Source: Diphasiastrum complanatum (Eukaryota > Streptophyta > Lycopodiopsida > Lycopodiales > Lycopodiaceae). From it: a stretch of 64,000 nt of DNA. Every line of letters starts with the position of its first letter. Position 1 is the stretch's first letter. The notes under the pieces are model-generated. The model had not been told where the DNA came from. It ran no database searches and was given only the letters and a program-made list of their open reading frames with translations. Location of the stretch: the NCBI GenBank assembly GCA_029204225.1, contig MU831924.1, positions 32,717 through 96,716 of the forward strand, given 5' to 3'. Shown piece after piece: positions 410-57,470 of this stretch. Position numbers and translations under genes: made by a program.

Positions 410-513
410 TTGGTCAGATTTGTCAGTGCTGCTCTTTACAGGAGATTGAGGATGAGTTCCTGCTCTAGAAAGAAGCCTTTGGTTTGAAGTCCTTCCATTC
501 TAATAGATGATGG

Positions 514-599
514 ACTCAAGGGTGTTGGCTCAATTGGTTATCTTGACATCCAAAGTTTCTTTGGTCTCAAGTTCGAGCCTCCCCTTGGAAACCAAGAAG
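514..599 (+). mobile_element. 86-bp tRNA-like retroposon, copy 1
   Basis: A tRNA-like unit with a pol III A box TGGCTCAATTGG at 526-537 and a B box GTTCGAGCC at 571-579. Their starts are 45 nt apart, as in tRNA genes. An internal hairpin CCAAAG-TTT-CTTTGG lies at 550-564 and a 3' hairpin CTTGG-AAA-CCAAG at 584-596. The unit is flanked by the perfect 17-bp direct repeat CATTCTAATAGATGATG (496-512 and 600-616), a target-site duplication, so it arrived by retroposition and is not a resident tRNA gene. It has no A- or T-tail. It differs from copy 3 at 4 of 86 positions and from copy 2 at 9. No CCA end or good acceptor stem is seen, so a working tRNA is unlikely. Confidence 0.85.
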
Positions 600-616
600 C
601 ATTCTAATAGATGATG

Positions 617-17787: not shown

Positions 17788-18185
17788 TGAAGAATTATGA
17801 GACCTAGCTATGGAGTATCTTAACTCAGATGCTAGATCAACCATGAAAGCTTGAGAAAACTTGGCTATGGAAATATCACACACAAGGAGAATTGCATGAG
17901 CATCTCACAAACTCAAAAGTGTCAAGAAGAAATGAATTGCTAGAGAGAGAGAGGAGGGCGTGGGTCCTCCAAATCCCTTGTGAGGCAAGCACCTCCTTTA
18001 CATGCATGGAAAGTCTAGGTGTCAACCATAGGAGTGAGCTACTTGGCCAAGTGGGCCACTTGCACTAATTTACATAAGTTAACAAAAGGGGGGGTCATGC
18101 ATTTAATTAAAACATGCCCCATGAGTTATGTACAACTTAACTAATGCTTAGCCAAAAGGGGTAAAATAGGCATTACTCTTCAACA
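17788..18185 (-). repeat. Copia-2 3' LTR
   Basis: 398 bp; + strand TGAAGAATTATG to CTCTTCAACA. The pol stop codon (18180-18182) lies inside it. Confidence 0.97.
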
Positions 18186-19550
18186 CCCTCCCTTAATGGC
18201 AATTTTATTCAAACTGACACCCAACAAAGTTCTGAACTTTTCAAACTTATCTTTACTAAGTGGTTTAGTAAAAATATCAGCTGTCTGGTCGTTGGTGTCA
18301 CAATAAACTAGCTCGATCTCCCCACTGTGCACTTTCTCTCGTATAAAATGCTGGTCCACCTCTATATGTTTTGTCCGTGCATGATAGACTGGATTCCTTG
18401 CAAGCTGAATGCAGCTTTGGTTATCACAATGTAACAATGTAGGTCTTACTTGAGCAATCTGCATGTCCTCAAGTAGACGGCGTAACCAAATGGCTTCACA
18501 GGCGGACCTCGTAGTCGCCCTGTACTCAGCTTCGGTAGACGATAGAGCAATAGTAGGCTGCTTCTTACTGCACCACGATATAGCCCCTGAACCTAGGCTG
18601 AAACAATAGCCTGTCGTCGATCTCCGATCGTCTCTATCACCTGCCCAATCAGAATCTGAATAGCCTTCCAGCTGAAGGTTCCCGTCATCCGTGTATCCAA
18701 TCCCATAAGTCACTGTCCCTCTCACATATCGTAAGATCCGCTTGGCTGCCTTCCAATGTGCTTCGGTAGGCTTACACATGTATTGACTTGCGATTCCAAC
18801 CGCATAAGCAATATCTGGCCTGGTGGTAGTAAGGTAAATCAGGCTGCCCACTAACTGACGATAGAGCGTCTCATCTGCAAATGCTAGACCATCATCTTTT
18901 GATGGCTTGTTGCTTGCATCCATGGGTGTGCTGATTGGTTTGCTTTCTTGCATGTTAAACCTCTTCAATAATTTCTGTGCATACTTTGCCTGTGAGATAA
19001 AAAGACAACGCTTTCCTTTCCAAACTTCAACTCCTAGGCAATAGTGTAGCAAACCCAAATCTTTCATTTCAAACTCATTAGAAAGATTCTTCTTAACACA
19101 AGCAATAAGCTTCTTATTGCTTCCCGTGATGAGTAGATCATCCACATAGAGCACAACAACCACAAAGTCTTCTCCTTCCCTGAAGACATAAAGATTGCAA
19201 TCAGACTTACTCTTCTCAAACCCTTGCCTTGCAAAGTACTCATCAATTCGGCTATACCAAGCCCTTGGCGCCTGTTTGAGCCCATACAAAGCTTTCCTAA
19301 GCCTGCAAACCAGATTCTCCTTGCCTGTTACTTCAAATCCCTGCGGTTGTTCCATGTAAACCTCCTCCTGTAGGTGCCCATTAAGAAAGGCACTCTTGAC
19401 ATCCATTTGATGGACATCCCAATCAAAATATGAGGCTATAGCCAAAACGGTCCTGATAGATGTCATTTTAGCAACAGGTGCGCCCCTCTTGCTGAGCATA
19501 GCCTTTCGCCACCAACCTTGCCTTGTACTTGTCCACTGTTCCATTGGCAT
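18180..19550 (-). CDS. Copia-2 reverse transcriptase and RNase H frame
   Basis: A 456-codon frame. Homology to copia RT begins at residue 24 (APVAKM, about nt 19481); residues 1-23 are an out-of-frame reading of the upstream RT start. Motifs: MDVKSAFLNG (residues about 49-58), YGLKQAPRAWY, catalytic YVDD (about 132-135), then RNase H DSDWAGDRDDRRSTTG, ALSSTEAEY, HCDNQSCI and VADIFTKPL-like TADIFTKPL. It would copy element RNA to cDNA in virus-like particles. The frame runs through the polypurine tract and stops a few bases inside the 3' LTR. All catalytic motifs are present, but no complete polyprotein is made because of the lesion near 19482. Confidence 0.95.
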   Translation of the reverse strand: MPMEQWTSTRQGWWRKAMLSKRGAPVAKMTSIRTVLAIASYFDWDVHQMDVKSAFLNGHLQEEVYMEQPQGFEVTGKENLVCRLRKALYGLKQAPRAWYSRIDEYFARQGFEKSKSDCNLYVFREGEDFVVVVLYVDDLLITGSNKKLIACVKKNLSNEFEMKDLGLLHYCLGVEVWKGKRCLFISQAKYAQKLLKRFNMQESKPISTPMDASNKPSKDDGLAFADETLYRQLVGSLIYLTTTRPDIAYAVGIASQYMCKPTEAHWKAAKRILRYVRGTVTYGIGYTDDGNLQLEGYSDSDWAGDRDDRRSTTGYCFSLGSGAISWCSKKQPTIALSSTEAEYRATTRSACEAIWLRRLLEDMQIAQVRPTLLHCDNQSCIQLARNPVYHARTKHIEVDQHFIREKVHSGEIELVYCDTNDQTADIFTKPLSKDKFEKFRTLLGVSLNKIAIKGGC

Positions 19551-22311
19551 GAAACTTGGTCTTATAGACCCACTTGCAACCTATTGGTTGCTTCCCTTCT
19601 GGCAATGTAGTGAGCTCCCATGTGTCATTCTTGACAATGGAGTCGTACTCCTCCTGCATGGCATGTTGCCATACCTTTTCTCTCACGGCTTCGTGAAAGA
19701 ATTGTGGCTCATCTGCATTCAGAATAGTGGACATAAGAGCAAAGTTAGTCTCTTGTCTCTCATGAGACCTAAGAGATCTTCTGACACCCTGTTCACTGCT
19801 CTCTCCTTCTTCAATCATTTGACCTTCTTTGATTGTTTCCCAATACCACCTAGGTAGCTTCTTCCTAGCAGTAGGTGATGTGGATGGTGACCACGTATCC
19901 CATGGTACTGTTTTAGTCTTCCGTTTGTCCCCAACTTCTGCTTCTGGGACTTGGCCAAAAAGAGGTCTCGAACTAGTAGGTTCGGTTTCCTGTTGTTGCT
20001 CCTGCACTTGAGGCTTACAGGACTCTTGACTAGGATCCTCATCCGTGGAATCAATCAAGGGTATGAACTCAGTAATTCCTTCCTTCTCCTGCTCCTGTAT
20101 CTTGGGTGCATGCTCTTCATCAAAGATGACATCTCGACTTAGGATCTTCCTCCTATTTTCGAGATCATATAGCACATAAGCTTTCTCACCTTCACTATAC
20201 CCAAGAAAGACACACTTTACGGATTTTGCATCAAGTTTCTTCCGCAAGTCCTTTGGTATATGTGCATATGCTGTACACCCAAATACTCGAAGGCTGCCCA
20301 CCTTGGGCTTGTTGCCACTATATGCCTCTTCTGGCGTGATTCCTTCAACTGCTTTGGTTGGACTTCTATTCAATAGAAAAACAGCAGTTGCTACCGCTTC
20401 TGCCCAAAAGGAATTTGGCAACCCCTTTGCCTTGAGCATGCTCCTCGCACACTCAACTATAGACCTGTTTTTCCGCTCAGCCACGCCGTTTTGCTGCGGT
20501 GTATGTGGAGCAGTAAACTGTCTCTTTATCCCACATGCTTTGCAAAGATCTTTGAACTCATCAGAAATATACTCACCACCCTTATCTGACCTGAGAGTCT
20601 TTAACCTCTTTCCTGTGTGGTTTTCCACCATAGCTTTCCACTGTTTGAAGTATTTGAACGCTTCAGATTTCAGTTTCAGAAAATAGACCCATACCTTCCG
20701 AGAGAAATCATCTACGAAGGTCATGAGATAGTATGCCCCCCTTGCTGATTTGACCTGCATGGGACCACATAAATCTGAATGCACAAGTTCAAGAATGCCC
20801 TTGGCCCTGGTAGCTTTCTCCTTTGGAAACTTTTTCCTCTGTTGCTTCCCTAATGCACAAGCCTCACATGTATCTGAAGAAGACTTAATGCTAGGAAGAT
20901 CTACTACCATTTTGTGCCTGTTCAAAACTTGCAAACTTTTGTAACTCAAATGACCATATCTCTCATGCCAAAGCTTGTCCCGATTAGTATCTCTTGCAGA
21001 CAAGGCCTCTTGGCTAGGAATGGTTGTGAAAAGCTTGTAAAGGCCTCCTTCTTGCATTCCCTTGGCTACCACTTTGAAGTTCTTCTCTTTGTCTTTTACC
21101 AAACATTTAGAATCATTAAACTCTACCACCATGTTCTGTTTGGTAATGGCACCAACAGATAACAAGTTCTTAGCCAACCCTGGTACATGCAACACACTTT
21201 TAATTTCCTTCACCTCACCTGATGATAGCTGTATTGCAACTGTACCTTTGCCCCTCACCATACGTGTAGAATTATCCCCAAGGCAAACATGCTGGCTATC
21301 TTCTGTCTCCTCATAGGTGCTGAACCAATCTCTATGAGGTGTCATGTGCTTTGAGGCTCCAGAATCAATGTACCATCCACCAAATGTGGATTCAGATGAT
21401 AGGGCTGCGGTGAATAGCTCAAGCACACCAGATTGCTCCTCCTCTGCAACTTTGTCAACAAAGTGACTCTGCTGGTTCTTTCCCTTCTTCTGATCACTTT
21501 GCTTCTTCCTGCATTCAAAAGCAAAATGCCCATACTTACCACAATAGTTGCAGTTGCCCTTCCTCTTGGGTGTAGATGAGGAATTGGTGCTTGACTCCTC
21601 TCCAACCTGTAACTTGGACACCTGCTGCTCCAAGCTTTGCTTTGAGTTCTTCTTTTTGCCTTTGCCTTTCTTCTGAAAGTTTTGCTTCTTCTTAGAAGCA
21701 AATGCAAGCTCTGGATTATCTTCCCTTTCAAAAAGATTCTTCCTTCTCATCTCCTCCTGTAAAAGAAGACCACATAACTCCCCAAAGGTTGGGAGTTTCT
21801 CCCTAGCAGAAAGGGACATCACATAGTCTTGATAGTTGAATGACAAGCTGTTCAAGACTATGGGAACAATACTCCTGTCACTTACTTTCTCTCCAACTGA
21901 AGCAAGCTGATCCAATAGGTCCTTGACCTTTGTAATATGATCACCAATTGTTGCACCTGCTTCCATCTTGAGAGTATGTAACCTGTTTTGCAAATACGCC
22001 AGCTTGGCTGAATCCACTGTTTCAAACATAGACTTCAGAATTGTCCAAGCATCAGCTGCATCCCTTGCATTGCAAATGTGAGGAATAATATTGTCCTTGA
22101 CAGAAAGATTGATTATCCTATGAGCTTTATGTCTCCTGTTCATGTAGTCCTTCAATTCAGGATCAGATGTTGGTACAGGTTCTGTACCTGTCATGACCTC
22201 CCAGCAATTCTTATCCATCAAGATATTGGCTATCTTGAACTTCCACACTCTGTAGTTTGTGCCATCTAGTTTGCTAGATTCACCCAGCAAACTCTCCCCA
22301 AGACTTGCCAT
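19468..22311 (-). CDS. Copia-2 Gag-protease-integrase frame
   Basis: A 947-codon frame from the first ATG after the leader. Gag (UBN2-like) spans about 1-250. The zinc knuckle C254-X2-C257-X4-H262-X4-C267 follows. Protease D316-S-G is in WYIDSGASKHM. The integrase zinc finger has H449, H454, C482 and C485, and the core D513, D576 and E612 with the expected 35-residue spacing between the last two. RT begins near 870 (EEYDSIVKNDTWEL) and the frame ends at QEGRTCC. The expected GIDxEETF-type stretch is missing at the break, consistent with a loss of about 20 nt that also shifts the frame. Otherwise the frame is intact, as expected of a young copy. Confidence 0.95.
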   Translation of the reverse strand: MASLGESLLGESSKLDGTNYRVWKFKIANILMDKNCWEVMTGTEPVPTSDPELKDYMNRRHKAHRIINLSVKDNIIPHICNARDAADAWTILKSMFETVDSAKLAYLQNRLHTLKMEAGATIGDHITKVKDLLDQLASVGEKVSDRSIVPIVLNSLSFNYQDYVMSLSAREKLPTFGELCGLLLQEEMRRKNLFEREDNPELAFASKKKQNFQKKGKGKKKNSKQSLEQQVSKLQVGEESSTNSSSTPKRKGNCNYCGKYGHFAFECRKKQSDQKKGKNQQSHFVDKVAEEEQSGVLELFTAALSSESTFGGWYIDSGASKHMTPHRDWFSTYEETEDSQHVCLGDNSTRMVRGKGTVAIQLSSGEVKEIKSVLHVPGLAKNLLSVGAITKQNMVVEFNDSKCLVKDKEKNFKVVAKGMQEGGLYKLFTTIPSQEALSARDTNRDKLWHERYGHLSYKSLQVLNRHKMVVDLPSIKSSSDTCEACALGKQQRKKFPKEKATRAKGILELVHSDLCGPMQVKSARGAYYLMTFVDDFSRKVWVYFLKLKSEAFKYFKQWKAMVENHTGKRLKTLRSDKGGEYISDEFKDLCKACGIKRQFTAPHTPQQNGVAERKNRSIVECARSMLKAKGLPNSFWAEAVATAVFLLNRSPTKAVEGITPEEAYSGNKPKVGSLRVFGCTAYAHIPKDLRKKLDAKSVKCVFLGYSEGEKAYVLYDLENRRKILSRDVIFDEEHAPKIQEQEKEGITEFIPLIDSTDEDPSQESCKPQVQEQQQETEPTSSRPLFGQVPEAEVGDKRKTKTVPWDTWSPSTSPTARKKLPRWYWETIKEGQMIEEGESSEQGVRRSLRSHERQETNFALMSTILNADEPQFFHEAVREKVWQHAMQEEYDSIVKNDTWELTTLPEGKQPIGCKWVYKTKFHANGTVDKYKARLVAKGYAQQEGRTCC

Positions 22312-22780
22312 GCTAAAATCTGTGCTTAAAACAGAAGCTCAACTTGAAAGAGATCAGAAAAGAACAGCTTCCAGCAACAAGGGTTTAACCCCAAACTAGG
22401 GTATGTAGCCACTTCAAGGCAACCCTTCAGCTCCTGCTTTTGTCTTTGCCACTTGGTGTGGCCTCACTAGCACAAGCACTAGGCTCCACTGGAACAGAAA
22501 CCAGAAGCCCCTACAGAAAGTGCGCCCTACTTTTGTGTAAGCTCCTCCAGAAAGACTCTCCAAAACTTAGCCAGATTTAGAAAGTTTTTGGATCATCCCA
22601 CTCCCCTTGCCAATAGCTCTCCAACAGTGCAAGACTCCACCTGATCTGACACCTGTAGATCAAATGCTCCCTCTTTCAAGATTGAGGTGCTTGTAGAAGA
22701 TAAGAATCTTCTCAAGAATCTAAGCACTGAAGTTTCTCTCACTCTCAGACTCACAGGCTAGACAACCTGCTCTGATACCA
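22312..22780 (-). other. Copia-2 leader with primer-binding site
   Basis: Untranslated leader between the 5' LTR and Gag. The 15-base complement of an initiator-Met primer site is at 22766-22780. No upstream long frame seen. Confidence 0.85.
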
Positions 22781-23178
22781 TGAAGAATTATGAGACCTAG
22801 CTATGGAGTATCTTAACTCAGATGCTAGATCAACTATGAAAGCTTGAGAAAACTTGGCTATGGAAATATCACACACAAGGAGAATTGCATGAGCATCTCA
22901 CAAACTCAAAAGTGTCAAGAAGAAATGAATTGCTAGAGAGAGAGAGGAGGGCGTGGGTCCTCCAAATCCCTTGTGAGGCAAGCACCTCCTTTACATGCAT
23001 GGAAAGTCTAGGTGTCAACCATAGGAGTGAGCTACTTGGCCAAGTGGGCCACTTGCACTAATTTACATAACTTAACAAAAGGGGGGGTCATGCATTTAAT
23101 TAAAACATGCCCCATGAGTTATGTACAACTTAACTAATGCTTAGCCAAAAGGGGTAAAATAGGCATTACTCTTCAACA
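22781..23178 (-). repeat. Copia-2 5' LTR
   Basis: 398 bp; two substitutions from the other LTR (C/T about 54 bases in, G/C in the CATAACTTA stretch). Confidence 0.97.
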
Positions 23179-23998: not shown

Positions 23999-26900
23999 GC
24001 ATCTCCCTCCTTATCAACTATGGCACCAAAAAAGAAGGGATCTAGCCCTACCGGCCAACCTCCCCTCCATATCCCCTTCTAACCCCCCATCATCTACGTC
24101 TTCTCTTGAAAGTATCGCTTGCATCTTTGCCATGGTTCTCTCCATGCTGCCCATGCAAGCGAACTTGTAGTCACCATATTTGGATTATGGTCAAGGCTAG
24201 GGATAGGGCTAGCAGGTGGTGATTGGAGGGCAATTGGAGGGCTAAGAAGAATATCGACACGGTCATCAGCCCTATTTTTAGTAGATTGACCAAATTTGTA
24301 CCAACACTTGTGCTGGTTTTGCCCCTCAGACAATTTGAATCTTTTGTCGGTTTTCCCCAAAAACCAGCCCGGAATCACTGTAAACTGCTTGATCTTCGAT
24401 CTGAAAATGGGTTGGAGGGGTAGTTGTTGTAGGGCGCCCATGCAAAATCTCAGGAAAAACGGGTGAGAAATGAAAAAGCTACCTCTTACTACAAAATCAA
24501 CCCCTCCTTTTCAAGCCAAGATTAGGTTGATCCAAACCAGACATTCCAAACACAACATTATGATCAAACTCACTTCTATCCCAATCAAACTAGGATTAGT
24601 GACATTTGATCTTACTCTGTACTACTCATAATGATTTTCAATTTCAAACGACCTCTAGTTCCAGATTGTTTGATACAATCCCACTTCTCTTATCCGAAAA
24701 TTGTGTAACTAATAGTTTCTCTAATGGAATCTTACCCCTCACTTCACCCTCCTTTTGAAGAAATTATCTAATTTCTTGCAAAAGTTAGCTGGAGAGATGA
24801 CACATGAAAATATCTAAAAAGGCAATTATAAGTGCCTTCCAAAATGGATTCACTTTATTATACTCAGGACTTTCCTTCCAAACATTTTCAACACGAGTGA
24901 TAGTAACCATCATCCATCTGAGATCTACCCATGCATAAGAGATAATCTGGTTTTAAGAAATTGAAATACAACTATCTTGGAACATCTCAAAATCCAAGCC
25001 TTAACCATATAAGTAGTAATTTGCATGATGATGACAGCCCTTCAGAAAAGAAATAACTTTCACGCTGGGAGGATCATATGAATTTGATCTCATGTCTAGT
25101 ACTCAAGAAACTCAAAAGAAGCAAGGGTTCTTTATAAGGTGAGAAATAGCATTAAGGATTTCCTGATTTGTAAATTATGAGATACCTTCATAGGGATCCA
25201 GATTAAACCTCAAAATTTCACAAAATACCCCAATATTTAACCGATGGATTCATCAGCTAGAATTACCATTATTGTAAATACTAACCATGGTCTACATATC
25301 ACTCTTGCACAAGAAATTTCCTTTGGAATCACTGATGTCCCATATCATCACCAAGAAACTCTTTGCTTCTAATTCTGTTCACTAGAGAGTCAAATTCTCC
25401 CGTGTTACCACTAGCCATTGACCCAGGTATGGATGAGAAATATCGTTCATATACTATTGAAATAACCCAAGTGTATTCATTCTCCAAAAGAAAAACATTA
25501 AGAATTCAAGACAACTGAAGTAACACAATAATAGATGTCCAATATCTATATCAGAATTGGTACAAGGAATTTCATTCCTTCCAAAAGATCCATAGCCTTT
25601 ATATTCGATATTCCAGAGATGTTAACCTGGATTCCCCATATCTTATAGGCACATATCTATCACAACCAAGATATGATACCACTATAACGATCGCCAAGTG
25701 AAGATCTTCTCAAATCCTGTTACATACAACCAAAAGGACACCTGTGGAGCAAAAAACAAAGAGATCCACCAAAAAGCTGCAAAAAGCAAGAATCCTGATT
25801 GATGTAACGATCGCCAAGTGAAGATCTTCTCAAATCCTGTTACATGCAACCAAAAGGACACCTGTGGAGCAAAACCACCCAACCAACAGGAAATGGATAG
25901 TCATTACCCTAACCACTTCACCCCCAACTCCAAGGTGAATGAATACAAGATAGGAGGGGATTCTGACTTTTGAAATCAGAAAAGACAATGAGGAGATGGG
26001 CGAGTTCCACTAGGATATATACTCTCCAGATGTCTAGAGAATATTCCCTCTAGGATCCCTCCATTCCTATCAAAAGCAATTGACCTCCTATTCTTGCATA
26101 ATATCAAACACCATGCAAGACGTGCCACATGTTCTCACACTTGTCCTGGTTGTAGAACATTCATGGGAACGTGATTTTGGGCACATGACCAAAGAATGTG
26201 TCCCGAAGATTTCAGAACATGGTTGGGAACATGTTTTTTGGTCACATTTTTTATAAACCTAATACCAGAATCAGCAAGGGAGGAAACAAAAAAGTCTAGA
26301 GCTATATATTGCTTACATAGCAGTGATATTGCACAAATACAGTACTCATGCTGTATTCTGTTTATATGATGTGTGATTCATAGTACAAAGCTGTGGAAAG
26401 TTCAAGTTTTGAAGTGTATGTATATCTTTTTATTATATGTCGCTATGATAATGTGGCGTTCCCATTTTCTTAGGGACATTTTTGTTTCTTGTTCCTATTA
26501 TCACTATAATTGCCTCCACATGGTGGAAAACCCATAGGCAACATACTATTGATCCACGGAGACATTCCAGCTGGGAGGGTTCTAATCAGGACTTACGGAA
26601 GGCCAATAGTGCTCCTCAATGACTTGGGAGGTATACATCTTTTGGAGCATACAACGGACACCCACTATATATTAAAATAGCATGGTTTCATGCCGCATCT
26701 TTCCACATTGAGTCACTTGAGAGGCCTATGTCACTTCCTGCCACCTTGGAGGAGAAATATGTGCCCCAATCATTAACATATTTTTCGTATCCAGGCCTGC
26801 ATCTCGGCCTTCGGTACCATTTTATGCTTCTACTCTTGCTTATAGAAATAACACCACAATTTTACAATAGATAATAGCAGACAACAAACTGAAGATTACA

Positions 26901-29700: not shown

Positions 29701-31552
29701 GGGGGGGGGGGGGGGGGGGGGGGTCAAATTGTAGGTAATTACAGATAGATTCTATAAACAATGAAAAAGAGTAAACTCTAAACAGGGTATTGACATGGAA
29801 TGAAAGCATCCTTGGAAATTGTTGTGGAAATAACACTCTTGGCATAGGGGATTAGAGATCCTCACAGTAACATAAATCTAAACTCTCAAATCAAAATGAG
29901 TAGAGATAAGGTGAGAAATGTGGATTCCTCAATAAAAGCATATTATATGAACTTGAACAAGCTGAGCATGGCATATTTCACAAACCATGCTCTCAAAGGA
30001 AGTGCATATGAGTCTCTTAAAAAGTCTCAAGTCACCAAATCAATCATTTATCGAATGAATGGTGGTTACTCTTAGTGTTTTGCAGGCCCTTAAGGGAGCC
30101 TCCTATGAAGCTACAAGGTAGGTTTAGGGCATATCATAAGCATGGTAGAGATTTGTGGTCCTACTAGTCTCTTGGTTCAATCAACCGAAGGTTATCAACT
30201 AGCGGAATAAAAACAAGAACCATGGGCTCAACTCATAACAACGTTTGAATACCTATAACTCTGAGTTGCCCTAATCATGTGTCCTTAACTTTAATCTCCT
30301 TGAATGTAGGCAGTAAATGGAGGAGCTAAATATATTTAAATGAGAATGAAACATAAGTTTTAAATGTAATTTATATGCTCAAGTAGGTAGTGAACACGTC
30401 AAAATTTTTTTGGCCACATCTGTAGTGATTGAATGATTTGCAAGTGTGCTCACTGCAAGTGCTCATGCTTAGCCCTGAAGCAGAGTGCATGGACAAGCAC
30501 ATCAGTGGACTCTAATGTGGACTTGGCAAATCATCCATTATGGCGACTTTTGCTATGTTGTAATTGTTATGTAGAGCAACACATAAATAAAGTGAACAAA
30601 AGAGGAATCATCTGGCAAGTTTGGACCATTGGGGGGGGGGGGATCAAATTGTAGGTAATTACAGATAGATTCTATAAACAATGAAAAAGAGTAAACTCTA
30701 AACAAGGTATTGACATGGAATGAAAGCATCCTTGGAAATTGTTGTGGAAATAACACTGTTGGCATAGCGGATTAGAGATCCTCACAGTAACATAAATCTA
30801 AACTCTTAAATCAAAATGAGTAGAGATAAGGTGAGAAATGTGGATTCCTCAATAAAAGCATATTGTATGAACTTGAACAAGCTGAGCATGGCATATTTCA
30901 CAAACCATGCTTTCAAAGGAAGTGCATATGAGTCTCTTACAAAGTCTCAAGTCACCAAATCAATCATTTATCGAATGAATGGTGGTGACTCTTAGTGTTT
31001 TGCAGGCCCTTAAGGGAGCTTCCTATGAAGCTACAAGGTAGGTTTAGGGCATATCATAAGCATGGTAGAGATTTGTGGTCCTACTAGTCTCTTGGTTCAA
31101 TCAACCGAAGGTTATCAACTAGCGGAATAAAAACAAGAACCATGGGTTCAACTCATAACAACGTTTGAATACCTATAACTCTGAGTTGCCCTAATCATGT
31201 GTCCTTAACTTTAATCTCCTTGAATGTAGGCAGTAAATGGAGGAGCTAAATATATTTAAATGAGAATGAAACATAAGTTTTAAATGTAATTTATATGCTC
31301 AAGTAGGTAGTGAACACGTCAAAAAAATTTTGGCCACATCTGTAGTGATTGAATGATTTGCAAGTGTGCTCACTGCAAGTGCTCATGCTTAGCCCTGAAG
31401 CAGAGTGCATGGACAAGCACATCAGTGGACTCTAATGTGGACTTGGCAAATCATCCATTATGGCGACTTTTGCTATGTTGTAATTGTTATGTAGAGCAAC
31501 ACATAAATAAAGTGAACAAAAGAGGAATCATCTGGCAAGTTTGGACCATTGG
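29701..31552. repeat. 920-bp tandem duplication with poly-G junctions
   Basis: Two head-to-tail copies with a period of exactly 920 bp: landmark TCAAATTGTAGG at 29724 and 30644, TTGGACCATT at 30621 and 31541. Copy 1 begins with 23 G (29701-29723). Copy 2 begins with 12 G (30631-30642). They differ at roughly a dozen positions, so the duplication is recent but not brand new. Each copy holds the same short frame (30433-30654 and 31353-31580, rich in Cys: MICKCAHCKCSC) that I do not recognise. No terminal TG/CA or primer site is found, so these are not LTRs. Confidence 0.9.
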
Positions 31553-36443: not shown

Positions 36444-36458
36444 CATTATTACGAACTC

Positions 36459-36544
36459 ACCCAACGGGGTTGGCTCAACTGATTAGCTTGGCATCCAAAG
36501 TTTCTTTGGTCCCAGGTTCGAGCCTCCCCTTGGAAACCAAGAAG
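36459..36544 (+). mobile_element. 86-bp tRNA-like retroposon, copy 2
   Basis: Same 86-bp unit as 514-599, with 9 differences. The A-box region TGGCTCAACTGA (36471-36482) is slightly degraded. The B box GGTTCGAGCC (36515-36524) is closer to consensus than in copy 1. Flanked by the perfect 15-bp duplication CATTATTACGAACTC (36444-36458 and 36545-36559). It interrupts sequence next to a gypsy RNase H remnant. No tail at either end. Confidence 0.85.
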
Positions 36545-36559
36545 CATTATTACGAACTC

Positions 36560-48400: not shown

Positions 48401-49040
48401 AAACCTGTCTCTAGACAACCTTATAGGTTTTCTCAGAAAGAGGAGACGGAGATTTCAAATCGAATAGAAAACTATCTGAGGATGAGACATATACAACCTA
48501 GTAAATTACCATGGGGCGCTCCTGTTCTTCTTAAAACGAAGAAAGATGGAGGTTTCGGGATGTGTGTGAATTACAAGGGTCTTAATAAAGTGACTATCAA
48601 AAATAAATATCCATTACCCAGGATGGATGACCTTGTAGATCGCTTGGGTGGAGCACGGTATTTCACCAAGATAGATCTCAGGACAGGGTACCATTAAAAA
48701 GAATTAAGTCGAAAAATGTCCAAAAGACAAGATTTCGTTCTAGATTTTTTCATTATGAATTCTTAGTGTTGTCATTTGGATTAACGAATGCGCCAGCAAC
48801 GTTCCAATAAATGATGAACGATTTATTTCGTCCATATTTGAAAAATTTTGTGGTTGTATTCTTAGACAATATTCTTGTTTATAGGAGATCCTTGGTGGAA
48901 CACGTAGAACACTTAAAAATCATCTTGATGAAACTCTGTCGGGAGTTACTCTACGCTAAAGAATCCAAGTGTGAATTCTTTAAGCATGAGTTGCTTTATC
49001 TCGGTCATAAGATCACAGTAAATGAGATCATGTATGCTTG
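45455..49040 (+). mobile_element. Gypsy-3: 5' half of a Ty3/gypsy element
   Basis: An LTR-like segment (about 45455-45823, starts TGTTAGTTATG) is followed by primer site TGGTATCAGAGCAAGG at 45824 and about 960 bp of leader. Gag, protease and RT palm follow on the + strand. The copy ends abruptly near 49030 in the RT thumb (LLYLGHKIT), where copia protease sequence begins. RNase H, integrase and the 3' LTR are absent. The LTR end is not CA, so the LTR limits are approximate. Confidence 0.8.
46789..48177 (+). pseudogene. Gypsy-3 Gag and protease (broken)
   Basis: Gag starts at 46789 (MVICQQLSTTLNDINNRNQM) and shifts frame at about 46930-46975. It continues FNLHGVPDEKKIESVLLFLH and SSWWQDLPMKPTTWDAFAKV (Retrotrans_gag). 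Stops follow at about 47231-47233 and near 47320. A Lys-rich end and knuckle CFVCKKPGHMIKFC (about 47565-47610) lead into protease (LLGSGSTHNFVNSRL near 47785-47820; the usual DxG Asp is Gly) in the frame 47470-48177. Confidence 0.88.
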
Positions 49041-55362: not shown

Positions 55363-57470
55363 GGAACCACAGACACCGAAAAAAAAAAAAGTTGAAGAAT
55401 TCTATGTCCCAGATGAAGGCTAAAAGGCAAATCTATATTTCATTTGCAACAAGCTTGGACATAAGATGAAGTTTTGTCTAGAAAGGAAAAAACTGGTTGT
55501 ACAGATGATTGAAATTCTAGGGTGTAAATGTAAAACTTTGGAAATTAACTTGTTTGATTGTGAGTGTGAATGTTCTTTTAGTACTGCTTCTTTCTTGTCT
55601 AATGAATCGTTTCATTTAACATGCAGAATTAGAGATCAAGAAGTAAATATTCTATTAGACAACGGTTCTACTCATGACTTCATTAATTCTCGTCTTGTGC
55701 AGAAACTCAACCTAGCAATTGAAGCCAGCAATCATAGATATAGAGTTTATCTTGCTTCAAAAGTAGATTTGGAGACTTGGAACGTTGAAAGTGCTGAATC
55801 TCTCATTATGAATGGTAATTTAGTAATTCGCCTTCTTTGGCTACTAATTTTGAGAAACATGTTCTCACTTTCAAGGAGGGTGATAAGGTAGTTACTTTAT
55901 TTGGCAACAATTTTGTACATCCGTTGGATGGAATTTCTATAGTTAATATAATGGAAGCATTTGATTATTCATAGTATGATATTTTTTCAGTATTTGCTAT
56001 TTCTATTATGGATGTTTATTATGTGCATCTAAGTAGCTGTAAATTCTCTGTAATTCTTAACTTATTAAGTTTAGATCACGAACAAGCAATGAAAAATCAT
56101 ATCATAAGTGAATTTAAGGATGTTTTTCCATTAGAGTTACCTCATGGTTTACCACCATCTAGGTCAGTAGACCACAGGATAGAGTTAATTCCCAGAAAGT
56201 CATCATATCTCTAGATCGCCTTATAGGTTCTCTCAAATAGAGGAGATAGAGATTTCAAATCAAATAGAAAACTATCTGAGGATGAGACATATCCAACCCA
56301 ATAAGTCACTATGCGAAGAAAGATGAAAGTTTCCGGATGTGCGTGAATTACAAGGGGTTGAACAAAGTGATTATTAAAAATAAATATTCATTACTTAGGA
56401 TGAATGACCTTGTAGGTCGCCTAGGTGGGGCTAAATACTTCACTAAGATAGATCTCAGGGCAGGGTACCATCAGGTAAGAATTAATCAAAATATGTCCGA
56501 AAGATTGGATTTCGTACTAGATTTGGCCATTATGAGTTTGTAAGTCAAGGGTGTTAGCTCAATTGGTTATCTTGACATCCAAAGTTTCTTTGGTCTCAAG
56601 TTCGAGCCTCTCCTTGGAGACCAAGAAGCATTATGAGTTCTTAGTGTTACCTTTTGGGTTAACAAATGCTCCAACAACATTCCAACAAATGATGAACGAT
56701 TTGTTTCATCCATATTTGGGAAAGTTTGTAGTAGTATTCCTACATTATATTCTCATCTACAGTAAGACCTTTGAGGAACGTATTGAACATTTGAGAATTA
56801 TCTTGATGAAACTCTGATAGGAGTTACTCTATGCTAAGAAATCCAAGTGTGAATTCTTTAAGCATGATCTAGTTTACCTCAGTCATAAGATAACTACTTA
56901 TAAGATCAAGATTAACGAGGATAAAATCAAGATAGTGGTTGATTGGCCAATACCACAAACTGTCAGGCAAGTTGAATCATTTTTGGGATTTACGATTTTC
57001 TTTCAGAGATTCATTGAGAATTATGCTAAAGTAACAGCATTGCTCAATAATCTGACAAAAGAGATTGTTAACAAAAAGAAAAAGAGGAATCAACCTAGTC
57101 CGCCTATTGTTTGGAAGAAGAAATTGAATCCGTGTTTTGAGAAACTTAAAACTTTGATTGTTTGTGCTCCCATGTTGCAGATTGCAGATCTAGATTTACC
57201 TTACGTCGTGAAAATTGATGCAAGTGATATTGCAATTGGAGCGGTTCTATTACAGAATGATATGCCACTAGCGTTTGAAACCAAAAAATTCAGTGGTCCT
57301 CAGTTGCGTTATACTGTGCAGGAAAATGATTTATTTGCAATTATTCATTCACTTAAAACTTGGAGACACTACTTGTATGGTAGTAAGTTTATAGTGTATA
57401 CGGATCACCTTCCTCTTAAGTACTTTTGAAATCAACATGATCTTCGGGGAAGGAAAGCCTGATGGGCGGA
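55363..57470 (+). pseudogene. Gypsy-4 protease, reverse transcriptase and RNase H
   Basis: Continuation of the interrupted gypsy-4. It holds a degraded zinc knuckle near 55440-55475 (LGHKMKFC), protease LLDNGSTHDFINSRL (about 55655-55695), linker ELPHGLPPSRSVDHRIEL (56140), RT ([33 protein letters not shown]), then the 86-bp tRNA-like insertion (56543-56628). After it come [19 protein letters not shown] and [12 protein letters not shown], where both catalytic Asp of FLDD are replaced by His-Tyr. RNase H follows at 56935-57429 (IDASDIAIGAVLLQ, YTDHLPLKYF). Reading ends near 57470; integrase and LTR are absent. Inactive. Confidence 0.9.
56543..56628 (+). mobile_element. 86-bp tRNA-like retroposon, copy 3
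   Basis: Same 86-bp unit (4 differences from copy 1). A box TAGCTCAATTGG at 56555-56566, B box GTTCGAGCC at 56600-56608, both hairpins conserved (one change in the terminal loop). Flanked by CATTATGAGTT repeated at 56528-56538 and 56629-56639; allowing two changes the duplication is 15 bp (to 56542 and 56643). It interrupts the HYEF codons of gypsy RT. The paralogue at 48751 has the uninterrupted site and also starts CATT, showing that CATT belongs to the target and not to the element. Confidence 0.9.

Follow-up and report, generated by a model that had tools for sequence, protein, structure and literature searches.

Three insertions of an 86-bp element in the window

The window, by which we mean the whole analysed stretch of 64,000 nucleotides of the Diphasiastrum complanatum genome, harbors three copies of an 86-bp element, as shown in Table 1. 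All three copies reported in the first-pass annotation were confirmed at their positions by a sequence check and by blastn, and no fourth copy was detected by blastn across the window. The equal length ascribed to the copies stands at 86 bp, except that copy 1 comes to 87 bp if base 513 (G), which falls outside its duplication, is counted in. A target duplication around each copy, previously put at 15–17 bp, was also observed, being 17 nt and exact for copy 1, 15 nt and exact for copy 2, and 15 nt with two mismatches (the first 11 positions exact) for copy 3, and all three duplications start with CATT. Over the 86 positions, copies 1 and 2 differ at nine and copies 1 and 3 at four, in agreement with the earlier range of 4–9 differences, but copies 2 and 3 differ at 13.

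Copy 3 lies within a Ty3 pol gene, and in a pol paralogue of the same window exactly 101 bases are absent at this point, corresponding to the 86 bp of the element and its 15-bp duplication. The paralogue provides a direct view of the empty site of copy 3, and all three units are genuine insertions.

Table 1. Positions of the three copies, their flanking duplications and internal elements in the window.
Feature	Position	Strand	Basis or remark
Copy 1, subfamily A, 86 bp	514..599	+	identical 86-mer in 31/40 scored genome matches, itself counted
Copy 1 target duplication, 5' side, CATTCTAATAGATGATG	496..512	.	sequence comparison
Copy 1 target duplication, 3' side	600..616	.	sequence comparison
Copy 1 A-box-like sequence TGGCTCAATTGG	526..537	+	match to box consensus
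Copy 1 B-box-like sequence AGTTCGAGCCT	570..580	+	match to box consensus
Copy 1 putative rod apical stem CCAAAG-TTT-CTTTGG	550..564	+	fold and covariation analysis
Copy 1 candidate 3' hairpin CTTGG-AAA-CCAAG, rival to the rod for the same CTTGG	584..596	+	covariation analysis
Copy 2, subfamily B2, 86 bp	36459..36544	+	identical 86-mer in 15/40 scored genome matches, itself counted
Copy 2 target duplication, 5' side, CATTATTACGAACTC	36444..36458	.	sequence comparison
Copy 2 target duplication, 3' side	36545..36559	.	sequence comparison
Copy 3, of subfamily A and differing from copy 1 at 4 positions, within Ty3 pol gene	56543..56628	+	
Copy 3 target duplication, 5' side, 2 mismatches to the 3' one	56528..56542	.	
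Copy 3 target duplication, 3' side, CATTATGAGTTCTTA	56629..56643	.	
Uninterrupted Ty3 pol paralogue, the empty site of copy 3	48601..48900	+	gap 101 = 86 + 15

Other repeats were also observed in the window. Direct repeats of 300 bases that are 99% identical (17788–18087 and 22781–23080) surround a long copia-type frame on the minus strand (19471–22338) and are probably part of a young Ty1 element, while two further 300-base repeats, 98% identical and 920 bases apart (29711–30010 and 30631–30930), possibly represent a small LTR element. Runs of (CT)n or (GA)n, roughly 30–70 bases long, are frequent at many places.

Copies across the genome

The search covered a 1.745-Gb assembly of 5176 contigs, in which the window lies on the contig labelled C406. 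Copy 1 as the query gave 1197 first-look candidates, and of the 40 that were scored, 31 were identical over 86 positions, four were identical over 84 and five matched at 99%; with copy 2, 15 of the 40 scored matches (117 first-look candidates) were identical over 86. The scored matches to both queries were scattered across many contigs. With a subfamily B3 copy from locus L031, for which 40 of 933 candidates were scored, all 41 full-length matches listed were identical, and these lie on contigs C1–C3. The best E value over 86 bases genome-wide was 1.6e-36. There are therefore at least 41 identical copies of one subfamily on three contigs and, by extrapolation, hundreds of identical copies genome-wide. 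No copy was found in a random sample of 20 stretches of 10 kb from 18 large contigs (200 kb), so that the family probably has fewer than ~26,000 members, a 95% bound by our own arithmetic which serves as an upper cap only. Exact element patterns gave no matches in prokaryotic and viral contigs, collections that say little on this family.

A total of 83 elements sort into sharp subfamilies with little variation within each, suggesting several source genes and recent activity, and bearing out the earlier supposition that the copies derive from several sources. Recent and identical copies of this kind form a natural set from which target choice, priming and re-insertion may be read base by base. 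An insertion present on two contigs was counted as a single locus. Among the 92 distinct loci, the flanks are unrelated except in L009/L084 and L017/L120. The loci read show no A/T tail, their 3' end adjoining the duplication directly. Since only two pairs of flanks are alike, the copies share no longer body, and the possibility that the unit is part of a larger repeat was rejected on the same ground. Of the points for which the first-pass annotation had proposed a genome search with the unit and its flanks, the lack of a longer body was thus borne out across these 92 loci, the lack of a tail in the loci read, and a fixed 3' end with duplications in most of the loci fetched.

Putative promoter, ends and fold of the unit

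The unit contains an A-box-like sequence at +13 to +24 and a B-box-like sequence at +57 to +67, with 32 nt between them, which we take to be A and B boxes by their match to the consensus; their putative spacing is that of a tRNA, as had been noted before. Full-length copies begin 12 nt ahead of the A box and end with GAAG, rarely AAAAG, the distance from the B box to the 3' end being 19 nt, and neither a terminator nor a tail follows the unit. No tRNA was detected by ARAGORN in the window, and Rfam gave no relevant RNA at the gathering score in the window or in L013, a locus with three copies for which no tRNA match appeared even at E values up to 10. The label 'tRNA-like' thus reflects the putative A and B boxes. 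Taken together, the sequences support the earlier view of a retroposed, tail-less 86-bp element with a presumed internal pol III-type promoter and mostly 14–17 bp duplications.

In the fold analysis, a rod was obtained in which positions 3–18 pair with 62–75. As many as 97.4% of cells pair, against 63% at most in slid controls, and compensatory changes on both sides were observed at three pairs (8–70, 10–68 and 33–54). None of 500 shuffles matched the observed percentage paired, the cells with both-side changes or the covariation score, while 35 matched the number of both-side-changed pairs and 479 the number of pair types. The lowest-energy fold of copy 3 alone differs from the rod. The 3' hairpin CTTGG-AAA-CCAAG, which had been described before, is kept in 97.8% of the cells of 18 distinct copies, but it displays no covariation, and the two structures compete, since the rod pairs the same CTTGG with the 5' end. 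The covariation appears to favor the rod over the 3' hairpin without proving it, because the shuffle control ignores the kinship of the copies. The inverted repeat formed by the rod stem stops 11 nt before the 3' end of the unit, and a MITE or DNA transposon was rejected, as the inverted repeat is not terminal, the duplication lengths vary and 5' truncations occur.

Target site

The target was analysed in a first set of 62 loci, from which eight repeats of another site and ten loci below the duplication threshold of the script, among them copy 3 of the window, were removed, giving 44 sites. The duplication starts with CAT at all 44 (38 CATT, five CATA and one CATC), the base at −1 is T at 27 sites and C at 17, and C at −20 together with T at −18 and −17 is prominent upstream. 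The duplication is 14–17 nt long at 37 of these sites, and similar lengths were observed in a held-out set. The latter comprised 39 loci of subfamily B3, of which 34 sites were scored, with L109 and L127 (no clean duplication), L124 and L129 (upstream flank too short) and L120 (a paralogue of L017) left out. A CAT start was found at 33 of the 34 and T or C at −1 at all of them, with T at −17 in 30, T at −18 in 27, T at −6 in 26, and C or G at −20 in 28. Nine older sites, whose CAT start was chosen by eye, also had upstream scores above background (p = 0.0002), harboring T at −17 in six, T at −18 in six and T at +6 in three, with one site (L089) below the background mean. G at −2 was found at 25/44 sites of the first set and 14/34 of the held-out set, and at 0/9 older sites. 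Copies that are 5'-truncated and still carry exact duplications were also obtained (e.g., L087 and L096).

The target preference is a pyrimidine followed by CAT(T), plus thymines 17–18 bases upstream, i.e., a split signature, and the whole motif is worth ~11.5 bits. The L1 target TT|AAAA is unlike the Y|CATT of the 86-bp family, for which reason a poly(A) L1-type target (TT/WAAAAWW) was rejected, and so was the RTE-type Tn-TA signature, given the thymines at −18/−17 and the CAT start. The first-pass annotation had recorded the duplications, but not their CAT start, the split motif upstream of it or the occurrence of copies in trains. Such a split CAT signature is indicative of a target class of LINEs for which no description was found in the open-licence literature.

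Trains of copies

Head-to-tail trains of two to six copies, with ~15 nt of target between them, occur at 26 of the 92 loci, with 12 of 32 loci in the first search, three of 19 in the second, 11 of 39 in the third and none of the two counted window loci; L010 and L071, which have long spacers, were left out of this count. The spacer is uniform within a train apart from small changes, and one of the four spacers of L129 differs. In all but one of the 30 neighbouring pairs tallied (29/30), the two copies come from different subfamilies, and neighbours show no excess similarity (0.094 vs. 0.082 for random pairs); the tally takes in the pairs of L010 and L071 and leaves out the third search. In the third search, L108 consists of two identical neighbours and L125 of two B3-like copies that are seven differences apart. 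Given the mixed subfamilies and the lack of excess likeness between neighbours, most trains are serial independent insertions. Units of ~101 bp with identical spacers could in principle recombine, and the identical neighbours of L108 would fit an origin of the trains by unequal crossing-over between target repeats or by duplication of units; however, this origin is very improbable, given the subfamily differences between neighbours and their random degree of likeness, and given that in the six-copy train of L031 one member is truncated on its 5' side and has the duplication directly against that shortened end. The same 29 pairs contradict an origin of most trains by tandem duplication.

L010 and L027 each contain two copies in an inverted-duplicated stretch, each copy in its own CATTTTTAATGA-like site, and seemingly represent one region on two contigs.

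The order of ages within trains was judged by the differences from the subfamily forms, which gives only a weak dating over 86 bases. The younger copy lies upstream of the older one in L014, L015, L023 and L125, and downstream in L009, L021, L124, L127 and L140. Where the younger copy is downstream, the junction behind the older copy must have served as the target. As an upstream motif, the 3' end of the element itself matches poorly, with a score of −16.7 against a native mean of +5.2 and −7.3 for random sequence, and it is our guess that GAAGCAU in the RNA pairs with the junction behind the older copy.

Proposed mechanism and the 3' end

Transcription from type 2 pol III promoters starts upstream of the internal A box. 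With the putative boxes starting at +13 (A) and +57 (B), the unit is probably transcribed by pol III, and its first base would be the expected start; as the unit holds no terminator, the RNA should run past GAAG into the flank. A LINE enzyme would nick the lower strand between the pyrimidine and CAT(T), the position of the observed preference, and the freed ...AATG-3' end probably pairs with CAU(U) in the RNA just beyond GAAG. Such pairing at the nick would make copying start at the same base each time and a tail unnecessary. The new copy would thereby gain the mostly 14–17 bp duplication, sometimes with a 5' truncation, that was observed at the loci. Since each flank retains a usable copy of the target, other family members re-insert at the same nick and build trains. 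We consider it quite probable that the 86-bp unit is a minimal non-autonomous retroposon (SINE) that moves in the manner proposed. If so, the LINE machinery needs little of the RNA of its parasite, namely a promoter together with the few bases that meet the nick.

Several observations at the 3' end bear on this proposal. An insertion between target copies at L044:165–220 (minus strand) reads CCAAGAAGCATTATATTTCCAAGAAG, with two 8-base element ends joined by CATTATATTT, and in our own reading it may be RNA copied from beyond GAAG, as if by read-through from another train. In an older sister family (~89–91% identical), L097, L098, L101, L103 and L105 end with CCAAGA before TGC, and L104 ends so before TCT; among these older relatives, recognisable duplications were restricted to L103 and the L105 train, which contains three units with a 16–18-nt spacer. 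GCAT spans the junction in the younger copies and in L105, which seems to fit priming by the nicked strand on RNA just past the unit. The CAT start could also reflect enzyme specificity alone, without RNA pairing. Against the proposal stand L109 and L127 of the 39 held-out loci and ten of the 62 first-set loci, which lack an acceptable duplication. The weaker showing of G at −2 outside the first set also counts against it, as does the poor upstream match of the unit's 3' end, behind which some insertions must nevertheless have taken place.

A search for LINE motifs in the window, in 200 kb of random sequence and in loci ≥2 kb revealed only a few degenerate fragments, none of them tied to the family. 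A degenerate LINE reverse transcriptase was located at L064:1804–3600, with a 3' end that carries a GTGCCC..GGGTAC stretch and ATTCTA repeats; this LINE appears, in our reading of its sequence, to be non-L1-like, and its 3' end, the single LINE 3' end read, has no match to the 86-bp unit. Endonuclease-like fragments with WNCNG starts were observed in L048 and L052, with no 3' end to compare.

Re-use of the same nucleotide

Re-use was observed at 26 of the 92 loci, several of them with three to six copies, whereas chance re-use is expected to amount to a few per cent at a few thousand copies and perhaps 10–20% at 26,000 (our own arithmetic), and we lean towards an attraction by resident copies. 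A rival explanation, which we place not far below an even chance, is that the trains stem from a minority of very hot sites, by sequence or open chromatin, rather than from attraction. Its weight comes from the paralogous sequences L009/L084 and L017/L120, in both of which the same nucleotide was struck by different subfamilies, and from the loose bound on copy number. In the first set, the motif score was also higher at multi-copy than at single sites (12 vs. 32 sites, p = 0.02), but the difference was not significant in the larger set (21 vs. 56, p = 0.15). In the 200-kb sample, 37 sites score ≥11 and 15 score ≥12, which extrapolates to ~320,000 and ~130,000 sites in the genome, respectively; sites scoring ≥15 were absent from the 200 kb, yet they make up 18% of the used targets, so that the best sites may be few.

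An attraction by resident copies leads to a wider reading, which we put forward tentatively and rate at roughly one chance in three, i.e., that of a self-homing SINE. An 86-nt tail-less RNA would be mobilised by a LINE with a hitherto undescribed class of target (~S-N-TT-N10-T-N4-Y|CATT) and drawn back to resident copies, re-inserting at the same nucleotide, while the CAU after GAAG in the read-through RNA would pair with the nick and pass the target motif from copy to copy. If this were true, the family would grow in two ways, by dispersal and by the assembly of its own copies into arrays.

Comparison with known systems

The 86-bp unit probably represents a new minimal tail-less SINE family. 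It is short, non-coding and dispersed, with A and B boxes and duplications of variable length, and it lacks the A/T-rich or simple-repeat 3' tail of SINEs. In the open-licence literature, no account was found that combines the 86-bp size, the lack of a tail, the split CAT target and trains at the same nucleotide. Simple tRNA-type SINEs, such as rodent ID, consist of a head and an A-rich tail only. The 86-bp family resembles them in its size near that of one tRNA, its A and B boxes and its target duplications, but it is tail-less, its 3' end is fixed and its target starts with CAT. HaSE2 of Helicoverpa is a tRNA-derived SINE likewise reported without a simple-repeat tail, but it is 244–310 bp long, with a mariner-like 3' part and seven copies (PMC3272025). 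AnnoSINE2 requires 20–500 nt from the B box to the tail and discards candidates with inverted repeats near the ends (PMC8825457). With 19 nt after the B box, no tail and the rod stem, the 86-bp family may therefore be missed by structure-based finders of plant SINEs.

Two known routes to such copies were weighed. The first holds that a LINE of the poly(A) type gave rise to the copies as tail-less by-products, by internal priming on a small pol III RNA of the host, as in mammalian L1. The tail-less retropseudogenes of therians described by Noll et al. share with the 86-bp family the absence of a tail, the target duplications and a proposed, fixed internal priming (PMC5322556). Nevertheless, this origin is unlikely, as their target is the L1-like TT/WAAAAWW rather than Y|CATT and they derive from many kinds of host RNA (PMC5322556), while here several subfamilies each contain many identical copies and no relevant Rfam match was obtained in the window (gathering score) or in L013. 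The second, a plant SINE of RTE type from which the tail was lost, is slightly less probable still. RTE-associated plant SINEs and Sauria SINEs are described as having a Tn-TA signature, in which the duplication starts with T or A and is preceded ~10 nt upstream by a run of thymines, and as sharing with a LINE their 3' ends, which finish in T runs or short repeats (PMC13295347). The split signature with thymines upstream of the nick is a likeness; however, the thymines of the 86-bp family lie 17–18 nt upstream (−18/−17), its duplication starts with CAT(T) after T or C (Y|CAT(T)), and it ends without a TTG or T tail.

For tandem re-insertion, the closest parallel is found in the CanSINEs, new copies of which often target resident ones and form tandem arrays, with two or more insertions in 21 of 59 regions (PMC4084570). 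They differ from the 86-bp family in the overlapping but unequal duplications at the locus described, in their poly A/T segments and in the L1 endonuclease suggested for them (PMC4084570).
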